Assembly: GCA_002690705.1 (NCBI GenBank)
Contig: NZFO01000009.1
Coordinates: 116,240-180,239 of the forward strand
Direction: 5' to 3'
Source of the DNA: Magnetovibrio sp.
GTDB taxonomy: Bacteria; Pseudomonadota; Alphaproteobacteria; Rhodospirillales; Casp-alpha2
Length of the DNA: 64,000 nucleotides
Position numbers and translations under genes: made by a program
Shown here: one piece after another, positions 1,147-6,743 of the stretch
Layout of the letters: every line of letters starts with the position of its first letter
Numbering within the stretch: position 1 is the first letter of the stretch
Notes under the pieces: generated by a model
Seen by the model: only the letters and a program-made list of their open reading frames with translations
Databases searched by the model: none
Told to the model about the DNA's origin: nothing

Positions 1147-2028
1147 TTAAAAAGAATACCCGTAGCGAATACCGATAGACTCCAAGCCTTCGTTTAAAAT
1201 GACATCATGACGACCCAAGGCACTTCCATCCCGAGTATTCTTTTCGCATAAACTAGCGTTCGAACTGTGATCCAAATGAGTCATTATGGAGTGGTGCTTG
1301 TCGATACGGTAACCGAAATTGATATGTTCTCTGAATAATAATCTGCAGCCTAATGACTTGCGTTTTTGACCGTCTTTATCACCAACAAGACGACCATCGT
1401 GAATCATACCGCCTAATCCAAGGCCAAAAAACCAATGTTTCCAAAAATCCCACTCCCAATAAAGACCTGCGTAGGCTTGATTAGTATCATCTCCAGAATT
1501 CACACTAACACCGAGGTAAGGTCGAGGTGACCATATGATATTGAGAAGATCGCGTGTTTCGAGGAGGATCTCTATATTGGTATCAACACCTTTTTCCTCT
1601 TTTGCTGAAAATGGACCTGTGTCGTGAGCGAGCGCGCCGAACCTAACCTCAGTGAGAAGATCTTGCCACGACCAACCTCTTAGTGCTAATGGATCGTTAC
1701 TGTTTGGAGGTGTATTTTTTTTTTCGTCGAGCGGTAATGGGGAGCTACGTCGAACTGATTGAGAAGTAATCTGATTTAGTGTTATTTTACTGGGCGGATA
1801 AGGTTTTGGTGATATTGAAAATGGATGTGGTTGTTCTAAAAAACTGTCCATATTGTAGAGGCCACCCCATGACTGGGCAGTAGCAGTTGTCGTAGGAATC
1901 ACACTGATCCAGATCGCAGCCATAACAATAAGTTCTATGCGGTATATACGAGCAGAACTGCGCCCCACTTGCTTTACATTTGAGGCTGGTATAATGCTGA
2001 CTATTTGAAAAATAACGCTTGATACCAA
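1147..2028 (-). CDS. PagL-like acyloxyacyl hydrolase (lipid A 3-O-deacylase family)
   Basis: A 293-residue exported protein. The C-terminal part matches the PagL/acyloxyacyl hydrolase family, an outer-membrane beta-barrel that removes the 3-O acyl chain from lipid A: paired YLGVSVNSGDDTNQAYAGLYWEW strands, the H-x-S active-site pair at about H254 and S256 (DHSSNA) and the terminal strand ESIGIRYGYSF ending in aromatic Phe. The third member of the triad (Glu) could be E262, E280 or E283. Compared with the usual SNA...KNPGLN spacing there is an insertion of roughly 16 residues after EKN. The start is TTG at 2028 with GAGGAAAAAA before it; ATG at residue 36 would leave a signal peptide with no positive charge, so the longer form (RIYRIELIVMAAIW..., cleavage near A51) is preferred. 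It stands alone, about 130 bp downstream of the enolase-like gene. Confidence 0.72.
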   Translation of the reverse strand: MVSSVIFQIVSIIPASNVKQVGRSSARIYRIELIVMAAIWISVIPTTTATAQSWGGLYNMDSFLEQPHPFSISPKPYPPSKITLNQITSQSVRRSSPLPLDEKKNTPPNSNDPLALRGWSWQDLLTEVRFGALAHDTGPFSAKEEKGVDTNIEILLETRDLLNIIWSPRPYLGVSVNSGDDTNQAYAGLYWEWDFWKHWFFGLGLGGMIHDGRLVGDKDGQKRKSLGCRLLFREHINFGYRIDKHHSIMTHLDHSSNASLCEKNTRDGSALGRHDVILNEGLESIGIRYGYSF

Positions 2029-2159: not shown

Positions 2160-3476
2160 TCAACGAGCCCATGGGAAGTGTTTCTTCGGGGGTAAATTAC
2201 CATCCCGTGGCAAGGTTTCGTCGCTTAAAGAAATGGCCTCGGCGACACGCAAGCCCTCATTCCACATGATCATCCTCTCAGAGCGTCCAAAGGACCGGAA
2301 CTTCAATTGACTCACTCCCCACCCTACTCCTAGATGCAATATCGTCGTATCCTCTGTCTCGCCGTAGCTTCCAGATATGATAGCGCCAAAACCGCATTTT
2401 TGGATTGTTTTAAGGGCGGTCAAGCTTGCCGTGACAGTACCTAATTTGTTTGGATCAATTAAGACTGCGTTACAAACTTTTTTCGGCTCGATGTTTAAGG
2501 CGCGATTGACCCTAGTATTCAAGAGGTGATCGCCGACGACCTGAACACGTTTGCCGACTGCCCATGTAAACCGCGCCAAACCCTCTTCATCATCATTACC
2601 AAGCGGGTTTTCCACCGAGACGATCGGGTATCGCTCAACCCAGTCAACAAGCATGCCTGATAACTCATCGCTCTCCAACGTGCGGGGGGCTTGAGCCAGA
2701 CGATATTGACCGTTTTCGCCGAATTCTGATGCTGAAACGTCGAGTGCTATCGCGACGTCCTCACCGGGTTTCAACTTTGCCGACTCAATAGCCCGCAACA
2801 CCATTTCTAGGCCGTCCTCGTTATTTTTGAAGGTAGGCCCAAAATCTCCGTGATCAGGGACCCCGCGTAGACGATCGGTTTTGAGCATCATTACAAGGGC
2901 ATGATGGTGAACTTTAGCACTCCATTCAAGAGCCTCAGCATAGCTTGACGCGCCGATAGCAGTGATCATAAAGCCCTTTATGTCGACTTGCGGAGTGTCA
3001 CGGGCTCTGCCAAAGATTTGAACCTGAGGCAAAGGCAGTGTGTCAGCATTACTGAGCCCTAAAAGCGCTCCAAGGTACTGCCAAAGAGGTAGTTTTTCGG
3101 CGGCTGCCGCCGCGTGGGTCACGGCCATCGATGCGGCAACCACCGCATTTTTGGGAATATGCTCCGGGTACACGGTTTTGTCCAATCCAATTAACAAGCT
3201 ATCTATTTGTGCCTGATTACGCACGTCTAGCCCCTTTAGTGAGGGCATTATTTTTTCGTAAATAAAATGTAATGCATTTTCGATTTCCAAGCCGATCAAT
3301 GAGAAATGGCGGTCTTGCGTTGCAATAAATTTACTGTTCGCAAATGATCTGCCAAAAGGCACGCTGGCGCGTCCGCGAGCACCATATCGCAATTCGATGT
3401 CCACCTCGATTGCAGGGTAACCCCGTGAGTCACGTACTTTCCGACCATGGACATTTTTGATAAAATTTCGTGTCAC
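2160..3476 (-). CDS. Enolase-family protein lacking catalytic residues (pseudoenzyme)
   Basis: A full-length enolase homologue (438 residues; typical enolase is 425-435). The fold signatures are clear: RKVRDSRGYPAIEVD at the N-terminus, ALDVSASEF, YPIVSVENPL, GETEDTTI and RSERM. The three Mg2+ ligands are kept (D246, E289, D316). The catalytic set is not. The S-G-A-S-T-G loop reads PFGRSFANS, the GG-H-A loop reads GRARD, QEF reads KGF (catalytic Glu to G168), GDEGGF reads GDFGPTF (catalytic Glu to F212), the ILIK base reads LID (D341), and SHRSGET reads SGSYGET (H-R-S lost). Only the second Lys (K392) remains. It cannot be an ordinary phosphopyruvate hydratase. The frame is intact, so it is probably under selection for another role. 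It is divergent from serC-serA, which draws on the same 3-phosphoglycerate pool. Function unknown. Confidence 0.88.
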   Translation of the reverse strand: MTRNFIKNVHGRKVRDSRGYPAIEVDIELRYGARGRASVPFGRSFANSKFIATQDRHFSLIGLEIENALHFIYEKIMPSLKGLDVRNQAQIDSLLIGLDKTVYPEHIPKNAVVAASMAVTHAAAAAEKLPLWQYLGALLGLSNADTLPLPQVQIFGRARDTPQVDIKGFMITAIGASSYAEALEWSAKVHHHALVMMLKTDRLRGVPDHGDFGPTFKNNEDGLEMVLRAIESAKLKPGEDVAIALDVSASEFGENGQYRLAQAPRTLESDELSGMLVDWVERYPIVSVENPLGNDDEEGLARFTWAVGKRVQVVGDHLLNTRVNRALNIEPKKVCNAVLIDPNKLGTVTASLTALKTIQKCGFGAIISGSYGETEDTTILHLGVGWGVSQLKFRSFGRSERMIMWNEGLRVAEAISLSDETLPRDGNLPPKKHFPWAR

Positions 3477-3522
3477 GATTATCCCCTTTGACGCATCCAG
3501 TAATGAGTAAAAACTCCATTTT

Positions 3523-3546
3523 AACTTGGTCAGTATTGACCAAGTT
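3523..3546. promoter_or_regulatory. Perfect 24-bp palindrome (operator candidate)
   Basis: Arms AACTTGGTCA and TGACCAAGTT around GTAT, 47 bp upstream of the enolase-like start. The right arm runs into five T, so read on the plus strand it also resembles a small terminator, but no plus-strand gene ends here. A half-site TTGGTCA recurs at 3784-3790, which favours a dimeric regulator site. The regulator is unknown. Confidence 0.5.
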
Positions 3547-3575
3547 TTTGATTGCGGGAATGCAAACCCGATCCT

Positions 3576-3592
3576 TACCCAGACTCTGGGTA
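3576..3592. promoter_or_regulatory. Perfect 17-bp inverted repeat (operator candidate)
   Basis: TACCCAGA and TCTGGGTA separated by one C, about 100 bp upstream of the enolase-like start. The one-base centre makes a hairpin unlikely and a protein-binding site more likely. Confidence 0.42.
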
Positions 3593-3622
3593 TTGTCGAC
3601 TAAGGCCTGATGTTTTACGAAA

Positions 3623-3657
3623 TTGTAAATGATGTGCGCAGAATGTTTGTAAATGAT
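3623..3657. repeat. Direct repeat TTGTAAATGAT, two copies
   Basis: Identical 11-mers at 3623-3633 and 3647-3657, 24 bp apart start to start, between the two divergent genes. The spacing is close to two helical turns, as for paired binding sites. No regulator can be named. Confidence 0.4.
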
Positions 3658-3924
3658 TTATATAGTTTTTCAAAATTAAGGTGACCTCCCCGGACATCGA
3701 AGACGGTTGAGCTATTTTTAGATCAACATATTACTAATAGGCACCGTCATTAACTTTAGGTGGCTGACATTTGAGATATTACGTTGGTCAGCAAAATTAA
3801 GTGTTACAAATTGGTTTTCTCATGATTAAACGCATTTTCAGAGCTCACGCCTCTTCATAAAATGTGAAATATATGATTTAAAGCACAAAAGGCATTGACG
3901 GATATCATACTAATACATAGGTAT

Positions 3925-3980
3925 GACGTGGGCCACGATCTCCCAACGGGTCGCAGCCCTTCTGTAAGGAAGGGGATTAT
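3925..3980 (+). promoter_or_regulatory. serC-motif-like leader RNA with SD-sequestering hairpin
   Basis: Immediately before the serC start are GGGTCGCAGCCC and then CCCTTC (3957-3962) pairing with GAAGGG (3969-3974) around a six-base loop. The 3' arm contains the Shine-Dalgarno sequence GGAAGGGG (3968-3975), five bases before ATG at 3981, so folding would block translation. Position, target operon and class of organism agree with the serC RNA motif known upstream of serC-serA in Alphaproteobacteria (Rfam family serC). The assignment is from memory of that motif, not from a covariance search. Confidence 0.6.
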
Positions 3981-5153
3981 ATGCAGAAACTAAATAAACC
4001 AATTACTAAACCGTCGTGTTCCCATTTTTCATCTGGCCCATGTGCTAAGCGCCCAGGCTGGTCTGTTGCCTGCCTTGATGTTGCCTCACTCGGACGGTCA
4101 CATCGATCCAAGGTCGGGAAGTCCAAGCTTAGAGAGCTCATAAGTCGAAGCCGATCGATCCTCGGCGTTCCAGAAACGCACCATGTGGGCTTAGTGCCTG
4201 CCTCTGACACAGGCGCGTTTGAGCTTGCCATGTGGTCGTTGTTGGGTGAGAGAGGCATTGATCTTCTAGCGTGGGAGAGCTTTGGACGTGATTGGGTTAG
4301 CGACGTCACAAATCATTTACGATTGAATGATCTTCGTATTTTTGATGCTGATTATGGTGAACTTCCCGATTTGACACTTGTGAATTTTTCGCGGGACGTA
4401 GTGTTCACATGGAATGGAACGACATCAGGGGTCTGTGTACCAAACGGCGACTGGATTGCAAGTGATCGCGAGGGGCTTACAATTTGTGATGCGACTTCAG
4501 CAGCTTTTGCCATGTCATTACCATGGGAAAAGCTAGATGTGGTCACGTACTCTTGGCAAAAGGTTATGGGTGGCGAGGGAGCACATGGAATGCTCATACT
4601 CAGCCCAAACGCAATTAAACGCCTCGAGACTTACAGCCCCCCTTGGCCCCTACCCAAAATTTTTCGATTAACCAAGAACGGAAAGTTGATTAACGGTATT
4701 TTCGAGGGAGCAACTATCAATACACCGTCTATGCTCGCTGTCGAAGACGCTCTGGATGGTCTTAAGTGGGCCGAGGAAATTGGTGGTTTAAAAGCGCTGA
4801 TAGCTAGGACCTCGGCTAATATGTCTGCGATTACCAATTGGATTGATGTCACCAATAATTTTTCTTTTCTGGCAAAAAATCCAACTTTTCGGTCCCCAAC
4901 ATCCGTATGCTTGGAGATTATTTCCCCATGGTTTTGTGGTCTTAGAGATGTCAAGCGCGGTGAAATAGTAAAAGACCTTGTCGACTTGTTGGAAACCGAG
5001 GGTGTTGCCCTTGACATCGGTGCCTACCGCGATGCACCTCTAGGGCTTCGTGTTTGGGCAGGGGCGACGATTGAGACGCATGACTTGGAGGCGTTATTCC
5101 CATGGCTGGAATGGGCTTTGGTTGAGGTTGGTGCAGCACATGCAGCCTTTTAA
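3981..5153 (+). CDS. serC: Phosphoserine aminotransferase
   Basis: 390 residues. It converts 3-phosphohydroxypyruvate and glutamate to O-phosphoserine with PLP, the second step of serine synthesis. The sequence is of the group shared by Alphaproteobacteria and Methanosarcina ([21 protein letters not shown] start), distinct from E. coli SerC. Residues expected to hold PLP include FTWNGTTSG, the Asp in ICDATSAAF and the Schiff-base Lys K194 in [13 protein letters not shown]. The start at 3981 follows a strong GGAAGGGG sequence that is inside a hairpin, suggesting leader control. serA follows after 15 bp, so the two form an operon. Confidence 0.95.
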
Positions 5154-5168
5154 CAATGGAGAATATTT

Positions 5169-6743
5169 ATGGTTAAGGTTCTGATATCGGATAAAATGAG
5201 CCCCAACGCTGAGAGAGTTTTTAATGATCGTGGCATTAGTGTTGACGTTAAACCCGGCATGTCGCCTGAGGAACTTACCGCGTGTATAGCTGAATATGAT
5301 GGTCTGGCTGTTCGCTCCGCTACCAAAGTAACTGCCGGGGTACTCTCCGCCGCGGAAAATCTCAAGGTGGTGGGCCGGGCCGGAATAGGGGTCGATAATG
5401 TTGACCAAAATATTGCGACCCAAAAAGGGGTGGTTGTCATGAATACGCCTTTTGGTAATTCCATTACCACGGCTGAGCACTCGATTTCATTGATGTTAGC
5501 AGTTGCCCGGCAAATTCCAGCAGCTAATTCCTCCACACATGCTGGTAAGTGGGAAAAATCAAAGTTTATGGGGGTAGAGCTTATGGGCAAAACCTTGGGC
5601 ATTATCGGATGCGGTAATATCGGTTCTATCGTTGCCGATCGAGCTCAAGGTTTAAAGATGAAAGTCATCGCGTTCGATCCATTTTTATCTCCAGAGCGAG
5701 CAAAAGATTTGGGTGTTGAAAAGGTGGATTTTGAAGAATTACTTCCGCGCGCTGATTTCATCTGCTTGCACACCCCACTTACGGACGCAACGACCGGTAT
5801 CATTGATGCATCTGCGATTGATAGCATGAAAAAAGGGGTGAGGATTATAAATTGCGCACGTGGTGGATTAATTAATGAAGAGGACTTGAGGGTTGGTCTT
5901 GATTCTGGGAAAATTGCTGGGGCAGCTTTGGATGTTTTTGCCAATGAGCCAGCGACTAATAACGCTTTGTTTGGCCATCCAGCGTTAGTTGCCACCCCAC
6001 ACCTTGGAGCATCCACCACAGAAGCACAAGAAAAGGTTGCTGAGCAGGTGGCTGAGCAAATGGCAGACTTCCTTCTAACCGGTGCGGTTACCAATGCGCT
6101 CAATATGCCGTCAGTTTCAGCGGAAGAAGCCGTTCGATTAAAGCCTTTTATGCATCTAGCGGAAAAATTGGGGAGTTTTGCTGGGCAAGCGACACATAGC
6201 TCTATTAGCGAGATTACTATTTCTTATGAGGGTGGTTGTGGAGCATTGAACTGCAACCCACTGACGGCGATAATGATGCAGGGGTTGTTGTCGCCCTTAA
6301 TGGAGGGGGTAAATATGGTTAATGCTCCCGCGATTGCTAAAAAACGAAATATTAAGGTGCGCGAAGTACGTAGTGATGGAGCCGGGGCCTACCAATCTTT
6401 GATTACTTTGGAGGTCGTTACGGAAAATCAACGACGTTCAATTCGAGGTACATTGTTTAATGAGGAGCCGCGGGTGGTGGAGGTTAAGGGTATTCCTATT
6501 GACGCCACACTTGGACCAAACATGTTGTACGTTACTAACCGGGACAAGCCAGGACTGGTCGGGGCGCTCGGCTCAATCATTGGTGATGCTGGTATCAATA
6601 TCGCGACATTTAACCTTGGTCGTTCCGAAGAGGGTGGAGATGCAATTGCACTCGTTGAAGTTGATGGTGAACCATTACCTGAAGTTCTTGCAGAAATCGC
6701 TGATTTAGAGCATGTCGTGCAGATCATTCCCATGAGGTTTTAA
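5169..6743 (+). CDS. serA: D-3-phosphoglycerate dehydrogenase
   Basis: 524 residues, the long form of the enzyme that oxidises 3-phosphoglycerate with NAD+ at the entry to serine synthesis. Domains in order: catalytic/NAD-binding core (VGRAGIGVDNVD; Rossmann motif GIIGCGNIGS; NCARGGLINEEDL; catalytic His in ATPHLGAST), an intervening ASB-like domain, and a C-terminal ACT domain (YVTNRDKPGLVGALGSI) that in the family binds serine for feedback inhibition. It is the second gene of the serC operon, 15 bp after serC, and ends convergent with metA 60 bp away. Confidence 0.96.
   Translation: MVKVLISDKMSPNAERVFNDRGISVDVKPGMSPEELTACIAEYDGLAVRSATKVTAGVLSAAENLKVVGRAGIGVDNVDQNIATQKGVVVMNTPFGNSITTAEHSISLMLAVARQIPAANSSTHAGKWEKSKFMGVELMGKTLGIIGCGNIGSIVADRAQGLKMKVIAFDPFLSPERAKDLGVEKVDFEELLPRADFICLHTPLTDATTGIIDASAIDSMKKGVRIINCARGGLINEEDLRVGLDSGKIAGAALDVFANEPATNNALFGHPALVATPHLGASTTEAQEKVAEQVAEQMADFLLTGAVTNALNMPSVSAEEAVRLKPFMHLAEKLGSFAGQATHSSISEITISYEGGCGALNCNPLTAIMMQGLLSPLMEGVNMVNAPAIAKKRNIKVREVRSDGAGAYQSLITLEVVTENQRRSIRGTLFNEEPRVVEVKGIPIDATLGPNMLYVTNRDKPGLVGALGSIIGDAGINIATFNLGRSEEGGDAIALVEVDGEPLPEVLAEIADLEHVVQIIPMRF

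Follow-up and report, generated by a model that had tools for sequence, protein, structure and literature searches.

The window analysed here, a 64,000-nucleotide stretch of a Magnetovibrio sp. genome (contig NZFO01000009.1), contains an enolase-like gene that raises the question of what becomes of an enolase when the reading frame and predicted fold are retained but the catalytic residues are not. The gene lies on the minus strand (2160..3476), starts with GTG, and encodes 438 amino acids with zero internal stops, in a segment where the plus strand is crowded with stops. A Shine-Dalgarno-like sequence (AAAGGGGAT / AAAGGGGATA; 3480..3489, minus strand) is found upstream of the start codon. The Pfam domains Enolase_N (5.5e-30) and Enolase_C (3.8e-57) together span the full length of the protein, and the NCBIfam eno model TIGR01060 scores it at 326.9 bits, above the cut-off of 300, so that automatic annotation would read the product as phosphopyruvate hydratase. 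Open reading frame, translation and full-length profile matches thus agree with the first-pass annotation, which had described an intact 438-codon enolase paralogue. From these data, together with a phylogenetic tree and an AF2 model, we designate the gene an orphan pseudo-enolase of a kinase-coupled variant-enolase family, for which we use our own label ENO2.

The genome has a normal eno elsewhere (G000:C3:132778-134004), with 34% identity to the window protein and every catalytic residue intact, and we mapped the window residues by alignment to this sequence (reference numbers are those of yeast enolase). The 12 functional positions read S44, R159, G168, H209, D246, E289, D316, D341, G369, S370, Y371 and K392. 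As in canonical enolase (TIGR01060; PF00113 and PF03952), the protein has the two-domain fold, the metal ligands D246 (codon 2739..2741), E289 (2610..2612, equivalent to E295) and D316 (2529..2531, equivalent to D320), and counterparts of S39 (S44) and K396 (K392). The residue following D316, an invariant aspartate (D317) in ENO2, is a histidine here. Unlike canonical enolase, it has R159 (3000..3002) for the loop-2 histidine H159 present in all intact relatives, G168 (2973..2975) where canonical enolase has glutamate and ENO2 aspartate, H209 (2850..2852) for the catalytic E211 and D341 (2454..2456) for the catalytic base K345 of both canonical enolase and ENO2, and G369-S370-Y371 (2364..2372; all codons on the minus strand) for H373-R374-S375, which is HRS in canonical enolase and ARS in ENO2. 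The alignment therefore bears out most of the residues originally listed, i.e., the replacements G168, D341 and G369/S370/Y371 and the three retained metal ligands. The second catalytic glutamate had been placed at F212, which is wrong since the aligned residue is H209; also overlooked were the substitution at R159 and the fact that K392 and S44 are kept. That the gene is an ordinary second enolase misread through misalignment, as its passing of the TIGR01060 cut-off could suggest, is scarcely credible, given an alignment that is unambiguous around every motif and a register fixed by intact relatives at 57% identity. In the Mycobacterium tuberculosis enolase, alanine at the equivalents of E168, E211, K345 or D246 abolishes activity (PMC10619443), and from these mutants the window protein can safely be expected to lack enolase activity.

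The gene order in the window is PagL-like, enolase, serC, serA. The PagL-like lipid A deacylase gene (1147..2028, minus strand) is the downstream neighbour and is conserved beside ENO2 in several relatives; on the other side, profile matches identify the divergent serC (phosphoserine transaminase; 3981..5153, plus strand) and serA (phosphoglycerate dehydrogenase; 5169..6743, plus strand). Enolase and serC are separated by a 504-bp gap (3477..3980), in place of which relatives have an APH-type kinase gene, many of them with a DASS-type transporter gene and a cheB-like gene. In G002, a genome of the same genus, the order is cNMP-binding gene, ENO2, kinase, DASS-type transporter, cheB-like gene, serC and serA. 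No kinase remnant was detected in the gap, and a search of the whole genome assembly, with the relatives as positive controls, did not find the APH-type kinase either. The enolase gene thus adjoins serC because kinase, transporter and cheB-like gene have been lost, and an adjacency that is a deletion scar is no argument for a role in 3-phosphoglycerate use, as had been proposed from the serC-serA neighbourhood. A perfect inverted repeat, AACTTGGTCAGTATTGACCAAGTT, followed by TTTTT is located at 3523-3546, 47 bp upstream of the enolase start, and is a candidate terminator or operator. Regulation through this palindrome was set aside, as a perfect match to its 18-bp core occurs once in the genome, and the core is missing from the loci of the relatives.

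A second enolase-like gene occurs in about one third of 120 related genomes, and its products are 42-57% identical to the window protein, compared with 33-39% for the canonical eno of related genomes. The 98 aligned ENO2 members all have exactly the signature S-H-D-E-D-E-D-K-A-R-S-K at the 12 functional positions, where canonical eno has S-H-E-E-D-E-D-K-H-R-S-K; D168 and A373 are thus substituted, and H159, E211, K345, K396 and the metal ligands are intact. It follows that loss of E168 and H373 is not specific to the window protein, but was already a property of the entire family. Directly upstream of ENO2 in the relatives is the gene for an APH-family kinase (PF01636) that is nearest to methylthioribose kinase (S-methyl-5-thioribose kinase, TIGR01767), to which model it scores 50-56 bits against a cut-off of 275. 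Searching GTDB with a kinase alignment returned more than 570 relatives, and among the best 80 loci, which were inspected, the retrieved stretch includes an enolase gene in 77, in nearly every case immediately next to the kinase gene. ENO2 is found in alpha- and betaproteobacteria, Rhodococcus and one haloarchaeon, and the pair with its signature is carried on plasmids or replicons of Rhizobium, Cupriavidus, Azospirillum, Methylobacterium nodulans, Rhodococcus and Haladaptatus; in the records of Rhizobium and Cupriavidus, a few kilobases separate kinase and enolase gene. The kinase is present in 16 of 142 genomes sampled across the class to which the window belongs. Public records annotate the E168D/H373A enolase of the pair (L032-L071, L072-L151 and L152-L159) as eno or phosphopyruvate hydratase.

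A search of GTDB contigs with the window protein as the sole, back-translated query gave zero matches, the sequence being too diverged. Among the solved structures inspected the ENO2 signature was not seen, and the best PDB matches are canonical enolases. Literature searches for the kinase-enolase pair, enolase paralogues and pseudo-enolases returned no match, which is weak evidence because subscription papers were mostly outside the coverage; the pair is widespread, and no description of it was found in the literature searched. Descent of the window gene from ENO2 is direct. By tree placement it is a member of the family, it occupies the locus of the intact G002 copy, with which it shares 57% identity, and both proteins have a C-terminal tail ending in FPW. 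Unlike other ENO2 genes, it has neither an adjacent kinase partner nor the intact signature, the D168/E211/K345/A373-R-S set having been lost.

The anatomy of the pair, its gene neighbourhood and the two substitutions suggest a reaction. D-2-hydroxyacid dehydrogenases are recurrent neighbours; on the simplest reading, a hydroxy-keto acid would first be reduced to a glycerate-like acid. The APH/methylthioribose-kinase-like enzyme may then phosphorylate the 2-hydroxyl of this glycerate-like 2,3-dihydroxy acid, and ENO2 would dehydrate the phosphorylated acid using the standard enolase machinery, with Mg, Lys345 as base and Glu211 as acid. E168 and H373 are positioned on the leaving-group side of canonical enolase, so that their shortening to aspartate and alanine would suit a C3-substituted substrate; the E168D and H373A replacements shrink two side chains beside the leaving group and would probably admit a substituent at C3. 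On Rhizobium plasmids, genes for PEP carboxylase, 2-hydroxyacid dehydrogenase and APH kinase are consecutive (L152 4166-8996 and L158 4151-8972), and near this row are the gene of the variant enolase and genes of the LIV-type ABC transporter kind. The serine cycle contains hydroxypyruvate reductase, glycerate 2-kinase, enolase and PEP carboxylase. The gene set of these accessory replicons is serine-cycle-like, with PEP carboxylase, dehydrogenase, kinase and ENO2 repeating the logic of that cycle.

To relate the state of the active site to the partner, we compared kinase linkage and residues across 38 loci, of which 5 are kinase-less and 33 kinase-linked. E211 and/or K345 has been lost in all five kinase-less copies (those of the window, of G032, and the third copies of genus g3), compared with one of the 33 linked copies. 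The G032 protein has E211Q and K345T, and the kinase is absent from that assembly. Besides an intact kinase-ENO2 pair elsewhere, three g3 genomes (G004, G017 and G023) have a third copy that lacks a kinase and occupies the ancestral serC locus, between a DASS-type transporter gene and a cNMP-binding gene (L062 4726-5964, L063 6608-7843 and L064 7641-8876). These are full-length (411-412 residues) and have lost the catalytic and most of the metal residues. In G028, the same degenerate g3 copy is cut by a contig end (L177 1-3000), and the neighbouring DASS-type gene is apparently broken into two frames, unless this is an assembly error. G033 has kept its kinase, and its ENO2 (L035 8888-10216) carries K345N, which may be a sequencing error or mark the beginning of loss. 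The comparison suggests that ENO2 loses its active site in the absence of the kinase; because only two or three independent events underlie it, the association is suggestive and does not amount to proof. The window and G032 assemblies are of MAG quality (96.5% and 94% complete), which means that a contig with the kinase could have been missed, while the locus itself is contiguous. In the lineage of the window, loss of the kinase and flanking genes would have ended the substrate supply, after which the active site may have been freed from selection as the remainder of the protein stayed folded. We consider it likely that the window gene descends from the kinase-coupled ENO2 family and has been both orphaned and catalytically disabled.

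In trees calculated with and without the dead g3 copies, the window copy is the sister of the intact ENO2 of G002 with starred support, and its branch is about 15 times longer. A single clade of the window and dead g3 copies (99/95 support) was set aside as evidence for a common origin of the losses, since long branches meet there and without g3 the window copy falls beside G002; the grouping may reflect long-branch attraction. Identity between the window genome and G002 is 78% for serA, 69% for serC and 57% for ENO2, where intact ENO2 proteins at a similar distance are about 75% identical. The window ENO2 has evolved 2-3 times faster than its relatives, and serA and serC of the same genome show no comparable acceleration. 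A free two-ratio codon model put the synonymous divergence (dS) of the window branch at its bound and was dropped; instead, dS was calibrated on serA (ratio 1.5) and serC (ratio 2.0). With this calibration, on which omega depends because dS is near saturation, omega on the window branch is about 0.08-0.11, compared with 0.04 in the relatives, and both omega = 1 (LRT >215) and equality with the background (LRT 18-40) are rejected. On the average of the branch, the gene is under purifying selection, although relaxed.

These values bear on the simplest alternative, that the gene is a recent pseudogene in fully neutral decay. The strong acceleration is confined to the enolase gene, and the catalytic residues were apparently lost after the kinase, as such decay would predict, but neutrality of the whole branch is rejected in the free model as well (LRT 72.7), and the gene has no stops, no frameshifts, only in-frame indels, and an omega far below 1. 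The probability of finding no stop is 0.0005 if all divergence were neutral; if only the excess change were, some five stops should have arisen, with a probability of 0.0045 of finding none (indels not counted). We therefore regard neutral decay as unlikely, in line with the original view that an ordinary pseudogene would look different.

The losses are focused at the active site. Family-invariant columns within three residues of a catalytic residue are changed in 20 of 36 cases, compared with 10 of 46 elsewhere (p = 0.0017). With 37% of the invariant columns lost overall, keeping the three metal ligands is not unusual, and the most degenerate g3 copies have lost two of the three, so that the weight originally placed on the retained metal site cannot be upheld; retention of these ligands is statistically ordinary, and we dropped it as proof of function.

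The AF2 model of the window protein has the enolase fold (pLDDT 84.5, pTM 0.87), with TM values of about 0.85-0.89 to PDB enolases; since homologues went into its construction, it speaks for a sequence compatible with this fold and does not prove that the protein is stable. With its predicted fold retained and catalytic residues lost, the protein has the anatomy of a pseudoenzyme, and the earlier proposal of a non-catalytic enolase paralogue holds at the level of residues, reading frame and model. Confidence in the model is lowest for the catalytic loops 43-59 and 371-374 and for residues 101-106. An active enzyme with a new reaction could in principle make use of the retained D246, E289, D316, K392 and S44, but the general acid and base (now H209 and D341), the loop-2 histidine (now R159) and the counterparts of the phosphate-binding R374 and S375 have all been replaced, the two catalytic loops are modelled with little confidence, and the substituted residues are found in no orthologue, which makes such an enzyme highly improbable. 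Homologues with the same substitutions, which would be expected of a repurposed enzyme, do not exist among the relatives: the dead copies have no new conserved motif in common and each is degenerate in its own way, arguing against one common new active site.

It is less straightforward to judge whether the enolase shell has been recruited to a non-catalytic task, e.g., as a metabolite sensor, in binding of Mg or carboxylate, or as a protein partner, and is kept by selection. Such a role would account for the frame remaining intact where stops were expected, for the retained metal ligands, K392, S44 and ribosome-binding site, and for the core, where 74 hydrophobic columns away from the active site contain 4 polar residues compared with 9.8 expected neutrally (P 0.024). 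The g3 kinase-less copies are likewise full-length, with core hydrophobicity kept (P at most 0.002 vs neutral) and a confident predicted enolase fold. Against recruitment, the dead copies lack a common new motif, the closest dead g3 pair (G023/G028) has an omega of 0.50 (0.24-1.15), which is compatible with relaxed constraint, and invariant columns are changed no less often (37%) than the 95-99% (29%) and 80-95% (32%) conservation classes, as broad relaxation predicts; retained folding may also reflect the cost of misfolded protein. We hold recruitment to be a real but minority possibility, and give much the same credence to the full scenario in which a dismantled kinase-enolase pathway left an enolase-fold pseudoenzyme with a selected non-catalytic role, with parallels in g3 and G032. 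Because relaxed constraint combined with continued folding suffices to explain the invariant-column losses, the g3 omega and the missing common motif without a new function, we lean towards the window protein being a remnant under weak constraint, which still has to fold for as long as it is expressed.

The bialaphos pathway offers one parallel in its carboxyphosphonoenolpyruvate synthase, an enolase homologue that has taken on another reaction; the likeness is by description, and no phosphonate genes were seen near the window gene. The archaeal enolase paralogues arCOG01169 and arCOG01170 are comparable in that a second enolase evolves fast next to a conserved one, and were inferred to be non-glycolytic (PMC4390880). 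They differ from the window protein in lineage and in their ribosomal superoperon context.

Of more value than the reading of this one gene are the kinase-coupled ENO2 family itself and the degeneration of its active site in kinase-less copies. Records annotated as eno hide a separate, kinase-coupled family with D168 and A373 across bacteria and archaea, a sign of a metabolic step masked by automatic annotation. Furthermore, the intact pair, G033, G032, the window and genus g3 form a natural series of an enzyme becoming a pseudoenzyme while its fold persists, and this series makes the question of decay or repurposing directly testable.
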